A stretch of DNA of 64,000 nt from Pseudomonas sp. S09G 359 (lineage in GTDB: Bacteria > Pseudomonadota > Gammaproteobacteria > Pseudomonadales > Pseudomonadaceae), in the NCBI RefSeq assembly GCF_002843605.1, contig NZ_CP025263.1:3563501-3627500 (forward strand), given 5' to 3'. Within the stretch, counting starts at the first letter, position 1. Each line of letters starts with the position of its first letter. Below are positions 37,973 through 42,013 of this stretch, in pieces. A program made the position numbers and the translations under genes. Below the pieces are notes generated by a model. The model saw only the letters and a list, made by a program, of their open reading frames with translations, searched no databases and was not told where the DNA came from.

Positions 37973-38584
37973 ATGCTGACGATCTTTTTCTACGCGCTGG
38001 TATTCGGTTTTGTGTTTTGCCTCTCCCCCGGTGCCGTGCTGGCGGAGACCCTGCGCCGTGGCCTGCTGCATGGTTTCACCCCGGCCTTGCTGGTGCAGGT
38101 CGGCTCCCTGGTGGGCGACGCCGTGTGGGCGGTGATCGGCCTCACGGGCATCGCCCTGTTAATCCAGCATGACGCGGTGCGCGTGCCACTGACGCTCGTG
38201 TGCGCGCTGTACCTGGCGTGGCTGGGCGTGCGCAGCCTGATCGACGCCTGGCACCTGCCCGCGGCAGACAGCGCGCCGGCCAGATCCGGGCAGAATGCCT
38301 TGGCGGTAGGTGCAGCGATCTCCTTGGCCAACCCGAAGAACATTGTTTACTGGGGCGCGCTGGGCAGCGCCTTGTCCGGCATCGTCGGCGCCACACCCAG
38401 CCAGGGGCAGACGCTGATGTTTTTTGCAGGTTTTATGCTGGCATCGCTGTTGTCGTGTTTTCTGATTGCCGGCCTGGTCAACCTGTTGCGCAAGAATGCA
38501 TCACCGCTGTGGCAGCGCGTCAGTTATGGCGCCTGCGGTGTGGTATTGCTTTATCTGGCTGTTCTGGCCGCCCGTGGAGTATGA
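37973..38584 (+). CDS. LysE-family amino acid exporter
   Basis: This 203-residue membrane protein has six predicted helices and the LysE/RhtB motifs (FCLSPGAVLAETLRRGL in helix 1 and NPKNIVYWGALGS in the later half). It should export an amino acid by proton exchange. AAGGAAC lies eight bases before the ATG. The AraC gene upstream is probably its activator. The substrate cannot be predicted. Confidence 0.92.
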   Translation: MLTIFFYALVFGFVFCLSPGAVLAETLRRGLLHGFTPALLVQVGSLVGDAVWAVIGLTGIALLIQHDAVRVPLTLVCALYLAWLGVRSLIDAWHLPAADSAPARSGQNALAVGAAISLANPKNIVYWGALGSALSGIVGATPSQGQTLMFFAGFMLASLLSCFLIAGLVNLLRKNASPLWQRVSYGACGVVLLYLAVLAARGV

Positions 38585-38896
38585 AGTTATATACTCTGCA
38601 ACTTGCCTCTTATCTGAATACACTCTGAACGCCGGTTATTTTAATTGATCATGCGTTGACATTTTGTAACTGGCTGAGTAGATTGCCCGTGCCCGCAACT
38701 GGGGCCTTTTTTAACCCTCACAAAAGAAGCCAATGGACACAGTATCTAGTCGCTGTCCGTGCACTGCGTTTGCAGGCATCGGGCGCCCAACCCAGAATAT
38801 GACAGGACTCGCCTCCCCGGTCCGGTAAGCTGCGCTAGAGCTCGATGCTCCACCGTAACTGCCTCGCCGGATGCCCGTCCGGTCCCGAGGTGTGTT

Positions 38897-39064
38897 ATGA
38901 CCTTTAAAACCCTTGTTTTACCTGATGTACCAAGCTTGGCCGCAGCCCTGCGGACCGAGCTCTGCCGTGCCCCTGTGGGGTTTTTCCCGATGCGCTCGGC
39001 CTTTGCTACGCCCTCCCCTCAAGACCCGCAGAGACCCAAGGTTTTCAGCCTGGATTTCGCGTGA
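38897..39064 (+). CDS. Leader peptide candidate 1 (55 aa, proline-rich C-terminal half)
   Basis: A 55-codon frame starts at ATG 38897 with GAGG seven bases upstream. The peptide begins MTFKTLVLPDVPSLAAAL and has about six prolines after residue 25 (TPSPQDPQRPKV). The terminator-like hairpin at 38970-38985 lies inside this frame, so translation of the region would disrupt it. Proline-rich leaders controlling Mg2+ genes (MgtL) are known in Salmonella, but sequence identity is not claimed. It could also be a chance frame. Confidence 0.45.
   Translation: MTFKTLVLPDVPSLAAALRTELCRAPVGFFPMRSAFATPSPQDPQRPKVFSLDFA
38970..38985 (+). terminator. Attenuator-like hairpin in the mgtA leader
   Basis: CCCC-TGT-GGGG followed by TTTTT, inside leader ORF 1 and about 320 bases before mgtA. 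CCGAGC and GCTCGG flank it (38955 and 38994) and can form an outer stem. Short for a full terminator, so a conditional role is more likely than constitutive termination. Confidence 0.45.
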
Positions 39065-39127
39065 GCGTTCGCGCCGCCTGAGCCTGCTGAAAACAGCAAC
39101 TTTCTGATCAATACCCTGGAGTTCCTT

Positions 39128-39166
39128 ATGAACAATTCCAGTGGTAGTCGGCTGCGCGTTAGTTAA
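39128..39166 (+). CDS. Leader peptide candidate 2 (12 aa)
   Basis: ATG at 39128 follows CTGGAG with six bases between, a strong ribosome site. It encodes MNNSSGSRLRVS. Its stop lies within the palindrome GCGTTAGTTAACTAACGC (39156-39173), so ribosome stalling or passage would affect folding there. It is 140 bases before mgtA. Confidence 0.45.
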   Translation: MNNSSGSRLRVS

Positions 39167-39173
39167 CTAACGC
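39156..39173. repeat. 18-bp perfect palindrome at leader peptide 2 stop codon
   Basis: GCGTTAGTTAACTAACGC reads the same on both strands. In RNA it makes a stable 7-base stem with a TTAA loop. No T run follows, so it is not a terminator by itself; it may be a structured element of the mgtA leader or a protein site. Confidence 0.6.
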
Positions 39174-39304
39174 TGCAGTAGTAGATATGTAATCTCCTTA
39201 TTTAAACCGATCGCGAAGTCCGCGGCTCGGCATGCTTTCGCTCGCCTGCAACCAGGTAAGTAACGGGTATGTTTTGTCGAGAATTGGCGACAGGAGTACA
39301 CACA

Positions 39305-42013
39305 ATGAGCGCCGTAAAAAACACCCCACTGCAGACCAAAAACGGCAGCGACAGCAAACTGTCGATGCGTGCCGCCCGCGAAGCCCACAACGGCCTGCAA
39401 GCCACCCTGGCCAACGTCCGTGCCACCCAGGACGGCCTGACCGAACTGGACGCCGCTGCCCGCCTGCAACGCGAAGGCTACAACGAAGTGGCCCATGACA
39501 AGCCGCCACACGCGGTCGTGCAGTTCCTGCAGGCATTGAACAACCCGTTCATCTATGTGCTGCTGACCTTGGGCGGCATCAGCTTCTTCACCGATTGCTG
39601 GCTGCCGATGCAGGACGGCGAAGACGCCGACCCGACCAAAGTGGTCATCATCATGACCATGGTACTGCTCAGCAGCCTGTTGCGCTTCTGGCAGGAACAC
39701 CGCTCGGCCAAGTCCGCCGAAGCCCTCAAAGCCATGGTGCGCACCACCGCCACTGTGCTGCGCCGTGAACAAGTGGGCAGCCCGCCGACGCTGCGCGAAG
39801 TGCCAATGCGCGACCTGGTGGCCGGCGATATCGTGCAACTGTCGGCCGGCGACATGATCCCCGCCGACATCCGCCTGATCGAGTCCCGCGACCTGTTTAT
39901 CAGCCAGGCCGTGCTCACCGGCGAAGCCTTGCCGGTAGAAAAATACGACACCCTGGGCGAAGTCACGCAAAAATCCGCCAGCAGCGTGGCCGCCGACCAG
40001 GGCAACCTGCTCGACCTGCCGAACATCTGCTTCATGGGCACCAACGTGGTCAGCGGCCGCGCCAAGGCGGTGGTGGTGGCGACCGGGCCGCGCACCTATT
40101 TTGGTTCGTTGGCCAAGGCGATTGTCGGCTCGCGCGTGCAAACCGCCTTCGACCGTGGGGTCAACAGCGTCAGTTGGTTGCTGATCCGCTTCATGCTGGT
40201 GATGGTGCCGATCGTGTTCCTGCTCAATGGCTTCTCCAAGGGTGACTGGGGCGATGCCTTCCTGTTTGCCTTGGCGGTCGCCGTGGGCCTGACCCCGGAA
40301 ATGCTGCCGATGATCGTCAGCGCCAACCTGGCCAAGGGCGCCACGGCGATGGCCAAGCGCAAGGTGGTGGTCAAGCGCCTGAATGCGATCCAGAACTTCG
40401 GTTCGATGGACGTGCTGTGCACCGACAAGACCGGCACCCTGACCCAGGACAAGATCATCCTCGAGCATCACGTGAATGCCTGGGGCCAACGCGATGATGC
40501 GGTGCTGTCCCTGGCCTGGCTCAACAGCTACCACCAGAGCGGCATGAAAAACCTGATGGACCAGGCGGTGGTGCAGTTCGCGGAGCAAAATCCGAAGTTC
40601 CAGGTGCCGTTTGCCTACAGCAAGGTCGATGAACTGCCGTTCGACTTTGTGCGCCGGCGCCTGTCGATCGTGGTCAAGGACGCCGCCGACGACCATCTGC
40701 TGGTGTGCAAAGGCGCGGTGGAAGAAATGCTCGGCATTTCCACCCACGTCATGGAGGCCGGTGCAGCCGTGCCGCTCGACGCCCGGCGCCGCGAGGAATT
40801 GCTGGCGATTGCGAATGACTACAACGAAGACGGTTTCCGCGTACTCGTGGTGGCGACGCGCAACATTCCCAAGGCGTTGGCCCGCCAGCAGTACACCACG
40901 GCGGATGAGCGCAACCTGGTGATCCAGGGGTTCCTGACCTTCCTCGATCCGCCGAAGGAAACTGCCGGCCCGGCCATTGCTGCCCTGCAACAGATCGGCG
41001 TCGCGATCAAAGTGCTGACTGGCGACAACGCCGTGGTCACCGCCAAGATCTGCCGCCAGGTTGGTCTCGATCCTGGCCAGCCGCTGCTGGGGGTGGAAAT
41101 CGAAGCGATGGACGATGCAACCCTGCTGCGCCGCGTCGAAGAACGCACGGTGTTTGCCAAGCTGACGCCGCTGCAAAAATCCCGCGTGCTCAAGGCCCTG
41201 CAAGCCAACGGTCACACGGTGGGTTTCCTCGGCGACGGCATCAACGATGCTCCGGCGCTGCGCGATGCCGATGTGGGTATCTCGGTGGACAGCGGCACCG
41301 ACATCGCCAAGGAATCGGCGGATATCATCCTGCTGGAAAAGAGCCTGATGGTGCTCGAAGAAGGTGTGCTCAAAGGCCGCGAAACCTTCGGCAATATCAT
41401 GAAGTACCTGAACATGACTGCCAGCTCCAACTTCGGCAACGTGTTCTCGGTGCTGGTGGCCAGCGCGTTTATCCCGTTCCTGCCGATGCTGTCGATCCAC
41501 CTGCTGTTGCAGAACCTGATGTACGACATCTCCCAGCTGGCCCTGCCGTGGGACAAGATGGACAAGGAATACCTGGCCAAGCCACGCAAGTGGGATGCGA
41601 AAAACATCGGCCGCTTCATGATCTGGATCGGGCCGACCTCGTCGATCTTCGACATCACCACCTTTGCGCTGATGTGGTACGTGTTCGCCGCCAACAGTGT
41701 AGAGATGCAGACGCTGTTCCAGTCCGGCTGGTTTATCGAGGGGCTGCTCTCGCAAACCCTGGTGGTGCACATGTTGCGTACGCGCAAGATCCCGTTCTTC
41801 CAGAGCACGGCCGCGTGGCCAGTGTTGATGATGACCGGCGTGGTGATCGCGCTGGGGATCTACGTGCCGTTCTCGCCGCTGGGCACCCTGGTCGGCCTGC
41901 AACCGCTGCCGCTGGCGTACTTCCCATGGCTGGTGGGCACCTTGCTCAGCTACTGCTGCGTGGCCCAACTGATGAAAACGATCTACATCCGCCGCTTCAA
42001 GCAGTGGTACTGA
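39305..42013 (+). CDS. mgtA: Mg2+-translocating P-type ATPase
   Basis: This 902-residue P3B-type ATPase imports Mg2+. Motifs: VLTGEALPVEK (actuator), DKTGTLTQ with the phosphorylated Asp (about residue 375), TGDNAVVTAK, and GDGINDAPALRDAD (hinge). About ten helices; the N terminus is the usual MgtA-type cation ATPase N-domain. Start at 39305, where AGGAG sits eight bases upstream; the further upstream codon has no ribosome site. Regulated probably through the long leader. An mgtC or phoP is not in the window. Confidence 0.95.
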   Translation: MSAVKNTPLQTKNGSDSKLSMRAAREAHNGLQATLANVRATQDGLTELDAAARLQREGYNEVAHDKPPHAVVQFLQALNNPFIYVLLTLGGISFFTDCWLPMQDGEDADPTKVVIIMTMVLLSSLLRFWQEHRSAKSAEALKAMVRTTATVLRREQVGSPPTLREVPMRDLVAGDIVQLSAGDMIPADIRLIESRDLFISQAVLTGEALPVEKYDTLGEVTQKSASSVAADQGNLLDLPNICFMGTNVVSGRAKAVVVATGPRTYFGSLAKAIVGSRVQTAFDRGVNSVSWLLIRFMLVMVPIVFLLNGFSKGDWGDAFLFALAVAVGLTPEMLPMIVSANLAKGATAMAKRKVVVKRLNAIQNFGSMDVLCTDKTGTLTQDKIILEHHVNAWGQRDDAVLSLAWLNSYHQSGMKNLMDQAVVQFAEQNPKFQVPFAYSKVDELPFDFVRRRLSIVVKDAADDHLLVCKGAVEEMLGISTHVMEAGAAVPLDARRREELLAIANDYNEDGFRVLVVATRNIPKALARQQYTTADERNLVIQGFLTFLDPPKETAGPAIAALQQIGVAIKVLTGDNAVVTAKICRQVGLDPGQPLLGVEIEAMDDATLLRRVEERTVFAKLTPLQKSRVLKALQANGHTVGFLGDGINDAPALRDADVGISVDSGTDIAKESADIILLEKSLMVLEEGVLKGRETFGNIMKYLNMTASSNFGNVFSVLVASAFIPFLPMLSIHLLLQNLMYDISQLALPWDKMDKEYLAKPRKWDAKNIGRFMIWIGPTSSIFDITTFALMWYVFAANSVEMQTLFQSGWFIEGLLSQTLVVHMLRTRKIPFFQSTAAWPVLMMTGVVIALGIYVPFSPLGTLVGLQPLPLAYFPWLVGTLLSYCCVAQLMKTIYIRRFKQWY

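Follow-up and report, generated by a model that had tools for sequence, protein, structure and literature searches.

A candidate ribosome-read mRNA leader with three small open reading frames upstream of mgtA in Pseudomonas

Introduction

Does the 720-base gap that precedes the mgtA gene of Pseudomonas sp. S09G 359 serve as a regulatory leader and, if so, how would such a leader act on the synthesis of the magnesium transporter? The window analysed here is a stretch of 64,000 nucleotides from contig NZ_CP025263.1, to whose numbering all coordinates below refer, all features being on the plus strand. It carries the gene for the magnesium-translocating P-type ATPase MgtA at 39305..42013 (NF011702, 1723.5 bits; TIGR01524, 1391.2 bits), and the gap, described in the original prediction from the sequence of the window and present there as stated, extends over 38585-39304, from the end of an ORF at 38584 to mgtA at 39305. 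The mgtA start with a conserved Shine-Dalgarno (SD) sequence is the one at 39305; an in-frame ATG is located further upstream at 39269 (914-aa ORF), within strand b of the leader described below. The original prediction had suggested that a leader parallel to, and not homologous with, that of Salmonella mgtA may operate here, and had named a lack of conservation of its frames and stems in relatives as the observation that would speak against it. When examined, conservation in relatives was found to be strong, and this comparison identifies the gap as a genuine conserved regulatory leader, in which three small frames are recognized, namely uORF1 (38733), uORF2 (38897) and uORF3 (39128). We give an even chance to the proposal that this mRNA leader controls mgtA after transcription initiation, with ribosomes on the small upstream frames deciding which hairpins form.

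A known RNA family was ruled out as the identity of the leader, since Rfam scans gave no match: cmscan of the window with all 4227 models of Rfam 15 revealed no leader match at the gathering score, the leader strand had none up to E 10 (a single chance-level match of 12.8 bits fell on the opposite strand) and four leaders from relatives (L078, L016, L058 and L053) had none up to E 1. The models without match in the window and in these four leaders include that of the M-box, which we take to be the Rfam family name for the Mg2+ riboswitch.

Distribution of the leader

A search for MgtA in 398 congeneric genomes gave at least 116 places at 72% identity or more and a second class at 57-59%. Ninety of the 116 orthologue places were read, of which 88 carry the element, and 60 non-redundant leaders among them constitute alignment A1, from which a covariance model of module 1 (the part comprising uORF1, helix P2 and hairpin P5) was built. 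The element is absent from two mgtA orthologues at 72-73% identity (L098 and L099) and from all 17 loci read of the 57-59% class (L100-L116), which represent paralogous mgtA genes; in L098 a junk match to the uORF1 motif contains 5 substitutions, and the full-length model matches of L098 and L099 reach only 6 bits and are not interpretable.

The module 1 model scored at least 100 bits in 116 of the 398 congeneric genomes, and a covariance model search of the own genome found module 1 as a single copy, with no further copies of the element beyond this match. Scanning 244 genomes drawn from the order, congeners included, returned three matches, corresponding to the own genome, one congener and a match of 21.6 bits (L119), which lies inside a long amidase-like ORF and was taken as chance, so that a wider spread outside the genus was rejected; four weak matches of 20-25 bits in the 398-genome scan, on stretches without mgtA (L122-L125), were likewise taken as chance. 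In a DNA search of 57 genomes 10 matched, 8 of them (own included) in the leader and the other 2 in mgtA alone. The exact 25-mer of the uORF1 start is found in 110 stretches of the genome collection, and the 80 listed are all from Pseudomonas: mgtA follows 536-758 nt downstream on the same strand in 74 of these 80 listed named loci, five of the remainder end 167-860 nt past the motif and one (L204) has another gene there. The closest among the 80 listed, from which records of the own genome may be missing, is P. marginalis ICMP 3553, with 87% identity over 1707 bases of leader and mgtA, and viral contigs contained no match to the 25-mer.

Certain loci have retained parts of the arrangement. 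L120 (G300) has only a 33-residue remnant of mgtA and the middle of its leader is gone, and L121 (G376, reverse strand) and L204 (1384-2283) have kept module 1 together with a uORF2 that looks open, upstream of a different gene, presumably Na/Pi-cotransporter-like judging from its sequence, with module 2 and mgtA lost.

Promoter and module 1

The sole sigma-70-like site found in 38400-39400 is the promoter TTGACA-17-TAGATT at 38656..38684, about 620 bases before mgtA, from which transcription would start at about 38690. TTGAC is present in 88/88 leaders, and the best hexamer 16-18 nt further on is TAAATT, TAGATT, TAAAGT or TACATT in 73 of them. A direct repeat, TCTGAAT-N4-TCTGAAC with 11-nt spacing, is located at 38613-38630, 25 nt before the -35 element, and visual inspection showed comparable repeats in L011 and L004; we take it to resemble a response-regulator box of the PhoP type. 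The 5' hairpin P1 (38691..38712; GCCC/GGGC followed by T6) has at least 4 pairs in all 88 leaders and a T-run of at least 5 in 60/88, its stem sequence varying between clades. P1 together with T6 is terminator-like and sits right at the predicted 5' end of the transcript.

The first small frame, uORF1 (38733..38828; 31 codons, MDTVSSRC...), begins with the nearly invariant region ATGGACACAGTATCTAGTCGCTG, and its start motif, with up to 4 substitutions allowed, was recognized in 88/90 leaders read, being absent from L098, L099 and the 17 paralogues. The motif is also present in L177, a locus of P. protegens strain FD6. Its coding signal is ambiguous (dN/dS 0.63 vs 1.22 and 0.76 in the other frames), and the frame shifts between clades after about eight codons, hence conservation applies to its start and not to its product. 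The distance from its stop to hairpin P5 is 7-9 nt in 54/88 leaders, 24-26 nt in 22 (the type of the window), 34 nt in 7 and other in 5. Inside uORF1 lies helix P2 (38754-38761 with 38778-38785), in which 94.4% of cells are paired and 4 of 8 pairs exhibit double changes across 60 leaders; one of its pairs is C-G in 31 leaders, U-A in 19, G-U in 8 and U-G in 2. Two P2 pairs also came on top in an unbiased covariation scan, most other top pairs of which reflect the clade split.

Hairpin P5 (38854..38899) lies over the uORF2 start, with CGTAAC pairing to GTTATG, such that both the SD (38887-38890) and the AUG of uORF2 are paired. Folded alone, P5 has at least 10 pairs in 88/88 leaders, with energies from -13.8 to -34.8 kcal/mol; it includes the uORF2 AUG in 86/88 leaders (the exceptions being L092 and L093) and the SD, fully or in all but one nucleotide, also in 86/88. 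Double changes occur in 2 of the 6 pairs of its outer helix, and the arms change jointly from CGTAAC/GTTATG to CGTGGC/GCCATG. The analysis did not reveal a convincing alternative pairing partner for P5. Module 1 as a whole contains 85 double-change cells as compared to 20.9 ± 8.5 in shuffles, and by alignment the most conserved part of the leader is uORF1 with the P5 hairpin over the uORF2 start.

The uORF2 frame

The second frame, uORF2 (38897..39064), preceded by GAGG at 38887-38890, has 55 codons in the window and 36-104 in relatives. This frame and its ribosome site had been pointed out before, and comparison now indicates that it is protein-coding, with a late D/E-P-P/Q motif: the dN/dS of the long forms is 0.35 (69 sequences, 425 pairs) and that of the other frames 1.19 and 1.38, and third positions account for 49% of changes, the corresponding values for mgtA's own start being 52% and a dN/dS of 0.32. 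The uORF2 consensus consists of the core W-R-V-C-P-x-T-G-x-L-x-Q-R-W, an acidic stretch and then the proline motif, which is located at residues 32-77. As D/E/K/N-P-P/Q this motif occurs in 86/88 leaders (DPQ in 50, EPP in 27, DPP in 4, KPP in 4 and NPP in 1) and is missing in L009 and L097; since its wobble positions are variable, it seems to be kept as peptide. The copy in the window has an internal deletion relative to most relatives, whereby the core is lost and SPQDPQRP is kept, and L023 has in the same way lost the putative sensor half and kept the motif.

Seventy-five homologues of uORF2 were found, of which those with names are hypothetical or uncharacterized and those with an organism given are from Pseudomonas, with one exception labelled Rhodococcus. 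The contig that carries this homologue (P0057), 2.86 Mb long and assigned to Rhodococcus sp. IEGM1300, is perhaps mislabelled or contaminated. No family was found by Pfam at E<=0.1 for uORF2 of L078, L011, L016 and L001 (the copy of the window) or by NCBIfam for two uORF2 copies. The structure model is poor (mean pLDDT 64.2, pTM 0.23), with the exception of two predicted beta strands over the core, at residues 44-51 and 58-65, just before the motif. A stem around the uORF2 stop (39041-39049 with 39086-39094) has at least 7 of 8 pairs in 26/34 leaders of the window's own clade, a count obtained by looking for the best-matching motif site.

Module 2: uORF3 and alternative helices at the mgtA ribosome site

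The third frame, uORF3, is present in the window in a short form of 12 codons (39128..39166), and a long form of 40-46 codons is found in 52 leaders, belonging to clades B/C. Long forms start mostly with MDE, MEE, MES, MDS or MDC, have a weak coding signal (dN/dS 0.66 vs 0.90 and 1.01 in the other frames) and stop 41-53 nt before mgtA in 52/52. The short form, which had been listed in the original prediction as a frame with a good ribosome site, does exist, but as a coding frame it was rejected because of a dN/dS of 1.01 (20 sequences, 122 pairs) and the lack of its ATG in 10/88 leaders. Of the 74 uORF3 starts identified, at least 59 have an acidic residue at position 2; the window reads MNNSSGSRLRVS, and its clade is mostly without an acidic start. 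The uORF3 finder missed 14/88 leaders, ten of which have no ATG (L004, L022, L030 and L035-L041), the other four being misassigned or doubtful, and L009 and L097, with a 74-codon frame at this place, were kept out of both length classes. Among the 34 leaders of the window's clade, uORF3 starts were identified in 20; these frames have 11-12 codons and end in the stop-rich loop of hairpin H1, where stops in all three frames fall within 14 nt in 13/34 leaders as compared to 0.005 in shuffles. The first 30 or so nucleotides of uORF1 and uORF3 are alike (ATGGAC..AG....TAG..TCGCTGYC at 38733 and 39128; L016, L058, L080), which is suggestive of perhaps an old duplication; in seven leaders, a score this high is reached by between 1 and 89 of the 1749 background windows.

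H1 (39152..39178) has as its tip the 18-base perfect palindrome at 39156-39173 noted earlier, which is thus part of a conserved hairpin. In 34 leaders of clades B/C, with the own clade not counted in this manner, 98.9% of H1 cells are paired and 5 of 11 pairs have double changes. Downstream of H1, three strands can be defined: the putative anti-sequestor strand a (39222..39237), which lies within the long uORF3 in clades B/C, strand b (39265..39279) and strand c (39288..39299), containing the mgtA SD AGGAG (39292-39296). Strand b can pair with a in a 13-bp helix or with c, and since a:b and b:c share this strand they cannot both form. In the window's own fold, UUUUGUCG pairs with CGACAGGA at the mgtA SD.

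For folding tests of these strands, 5 of the 60 leaders (L019, L028, L030, L042 and L044) were dropped, leaving 20 of clade A and 35 of clades B/C, and alignment A2 consists of the latter without L009 (34 leaders). In A2, 96.2% of cells are paired for H1 with the 13-bp a:b helix and 98.5% for H1 with b:c around the mgtA SD; these joint counts contain 35 double-change cells of H1, and a:b and b:c were recounted alone. The a:b helix by itself has double changes in 8/13 pairs vs 3.4 in shuffles and 24 double-change cells vs 6.0 ± 1.9. For b:c alone, 97.9% of cells are paired with 12 double-change cells vs 2.0 ± 1.2 in shuffles, and its 3/10 pairs with double changes were reached by 65/500 shuffles and its pair-type count by 272/500, so that covariation is weaker than for a:b. 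The covariation controls do not fully remove shared ancestry. Covariation of stems across pseudomonads, which had been put forward as a check of the leader, was observed for P2, the P5 outer helix, H1 and a:b, and less strongly for b:c.

Strand a lies inside uORF3 in 34/34 clade B/C leaders, with the uORF3 stop 5-15 nt before b. The first test of a switch failed: masking a caused no overall change in the probability of the SD being unpaired (0.32 vs 0.32 in 88 leaders), the value moving slightly the wrong way in leaders with a long uORF3 (0.30 to 0.34) and in the expected way in the others (0.36 to 0.29). Strand-strand pairing, measured after this negative outcome, responded to masking of a in clades B/C, where the expected number of b:c pairs rose from 5.24 to 12.47, by more than 1 in 27/35 leaders and with a decrease in 0, as compared to 4.95 pairs and an increase in 2 with other masks. 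In clade A, it went from 3.05 to 5.61, increasing in 13/20 and decreasing in 2. When strict pair sets were used, b:c outer went from 0.11 to no more than 0.37 on masking of a. For the sequence of the window itself, the lowest-energy fold contains the SD hairpin whether a is masked or not, and the switch was not seen there. Folding and covariation together indicate that in clades B/C the mgtA ribosome site is enclosed by b:c and would be freed by the mutually exclusive a:b, and that in the window's clade, with its short uORF3, this predicted switch is weaker.

Proposed mechanism and alternative explanations

The small frames appear to sit over, or just before, strands whose pairing governs whether the next start can be reached, and comparison supports a ribosome-read leader. 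The best reading, as probable as its negation in our estimate, is that of a non-homologous leader working like those of Salmonella mgtQ and MgtL, whose direction of control and response to Mg2+ would follow from this analogy. By comparison, the structured module 1 (uORF1, P2 and P5) covers the uORF2 start, and in such a scheme a ribosome finishing uORF1 would open P5 and allow reading of uORF2, as might be expected from the stop located 7-9 nt before P5 in 54/88 leaders; against this speak the shifts of the uORF1 frame between clades and the 27/88 leaders whose uORF1 stops 25 or 34 nt before P5. The proline motif of uORF2 may then stall ribosomes. In E. coli, acidic residues acted in an EttA-dependent manner within the first ~30 residues, according to PMC11282234, and the location of the uORF2 motif at 32-77, beyond this limit, speaks against the proposal. 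In clades B/C, a ribosome passing over strand a would let b:c form and turn mgtA off, and ribosome drop-off early in uORF3 would, by analogy with mgtQ, let a:b form and turn mgtA on. Such drop-off at the acidic MDE/MEE start of uORF3 would be expected at low Mg2+, presumably the signal, as with Salmonella mgtQ and MgtL. A competing outcome is that a ribosome terminating uORF3 would contact b as well, whereby the mgtA site could be opened, not closed. As uORF3 is reduced in the window's clade, mgtA would there be governed by module 1, uORF2 and RNA folding. A bolder extension, which we hold to be possible and still well short of an even chance, regards the element as a new class of metal-transporter leader with two tandem modules, each having a small MDxxS frame and separated by a conserved nascent-peptide sensor, usually of about 95 aa, that would act as a ribosome-stability relay before a Mg2+ pump. 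The same tentative grade applies to the relay logic, whereby each MDxxS frame would stop just before the hairpin hiding the next start (uORF1 to uORF2, uORF3 to mgtA).

Among alternatives, the foremost, itself unlikely, makes uORF2 a nascent-peptide sensor like CruR, whose mid-peptide element would sense and whose late proline motif would arrest, with arrest or release deciding Rho-dependent termination before mgtA. The plan is alike in CruR, a uORF protein for which PMC9426467 describes two conserved elements, a sensor motif and a proline arrest motif at the C terminus, and the purifying selection on uORF2, the predicted beta-hairpin of its core ahead of the motif and the stem that surrounds its stop codon in own-clade leaders agree with it; it is opposed by the absence of a Pfam match for uORF2, the loss of the putative sensor half with retention of the motif in the window's copy and L023, and the lack of the motif in L009 and L097. 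We regard as rather improbable a riboswitch, in which Mg2+ or some other ligand would be sensed by the leader RNA itself and the small frames would be secondary. In its favour, the nearly invariant stretches GGACACAGTATCTAG and CTGCGCTAGAG, unpaired in the counted helices, lie between covarying ones, ribosome-site hairpins are possible expression platforms and the own clade keeps its SD hairpin while uORF3 is reduced; yet no Rfam family is resembled, uORF2 has a coding signal, the long uORF3 is placed over strand a, and P5 has no convincing alternative partner. Quite unlikely is the explanation that uORF2 is a common small-protein gene, transcribed together with mgtA, whose product works in trans, and that the hairpins only tune its level: its dN/dS near that of the mgtA N-terminus and its open appearance in L121 and L204 despite loss of mgtA and module 2 fit this, but the predicted fold is of low confidence, large internal deletions are tolerated and module 2 is left unexplained. 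Least credible by far is a transcription attenuator at a C4-G4 hairpin within the 38897 frame as originally envisaged, for although CCCC-TGT-GGGG-TTTTT is present, it is not a fixed feature, the strict 4-bp form occurring in 4/34 own-clade leaders (1.0 in shuffles), a form with Ts and G-U allowed in a minority of 10/34 (1.9 in shuffles) and the flanking CCGAGC/GCTCGG in 1/34, and the terminator scan, which needs 5 pairs, did not call it.

Returning to the ribosome-read leader, what stands of the original prediction is the leader itself, the 38897 frame and the palindrome, and what falls is the attenuator and the 12-codon coding frame; the idea of a parallel non-homologous leader agrees with a long leader, a coding small frame with a proline/acidic motif, alternative stems and no Rfam match. 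The promoter, uORF1, P1, P2, P5 and strands a, b and c are parts absent from that prediction.

Significance

Mg2+-dependent ribosome-read leaders are already known from enterobacteria. If the reading proposed here is true, a non-homologous leader in more than 100 Pseudomonas species would suggest that ribosome-stability control of Mg2+ uptake arose more than once, and a function would be provided for the 'hypothetical protein' family represented by uORF2. The leaders also provide naturally occurring variants, in which uORF3 is long, short or without its start, for finding which parts matter. No study of a Pseudomonas mgtA leader was recognized among the matches listed in the open literature (titles and abstract starts), which mostly excludes subscription papers and is hence weak evidence of novelty. 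A study of P. aeruginosa MgtA uses the Salmonella leader as a sensor, and the Pseudomonas leader is not analysed in the available part of that paper (PMC11218974).

Comparison with known systems

The closest plan is that of Salmonella mgtQ-mgtB, in which an 8-aa frame with Asp2 and Glu5 is combined with a ribosome-site hairpin and alternative stems, translation of the small frame and of mgtB being inversely related and the acidic residues destabilising the ribosome (PMC8092293). In mgtQ-type frames this ribosome destabilisation is countered by L31. As in mgtQ, clades B/C have a small frame, there mostly with an acidic start, over one strand of an alternative helix and a transporter ribosome site in a hairpin with an exclusive alternative helix, the latter arrangement being weaker in clade A. 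Unlike mgtQ, the present leader lies 5' of mgtA and contains a 40-46-codon frame and two further frames, and the window's clade mostly lacks the acidic start; the likeness is one of plan only, homology having been compared solely via Rfam.

MgtL provides the Salmonella precedent for control of mgtA by a small-frame leader (PMC11282234), and the E. coli and Salmonella mgtA leaders are reviewed in PMC11552253. Like the MgtL leader of Salmonella and E. coli, the one described here is long, precedes mgtA and has an acidic/proline small frame and alternative RNA folds; unlike it, there is no Rfam match and hairpins cover ribosome sites. The MgtL peptide begins with EPDP, and action through Rho is reported for it in Salmonella, whereas the motif of the present leader comes late in a frame that usually has about 95 codons, and the acidic uORF3 start of clades B/C has no adjacent proline. 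The copper uORF CruR (DUF2946) of Bordetella shares with uORF2 a conserved middle motif, a late proline motif and a position ahead of a metal-uptake gene, but the uORF2 consensus has no CXXC and no Pfam match (DUF2946 was not found at E<=0.1 in L078, L011, L016 and the window's copy), the metal is another one, and extra frames and switch helices are present. In trp attenuation, to which PMC8092293 also refers, the ribosome position selects between exclusive helices, with a terminator as the outcome. The leader would resemble this type in that ribosome position would pick between exclusive helices with a common strand, and would differ in that the choice would determine whether a ribosome site is accessible instead of whether a terminator forms. 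The mgtA leader found in many Pseudomonas species seems to be a further variation on an established principle, the control of magnesium uptake by translation of small frames.
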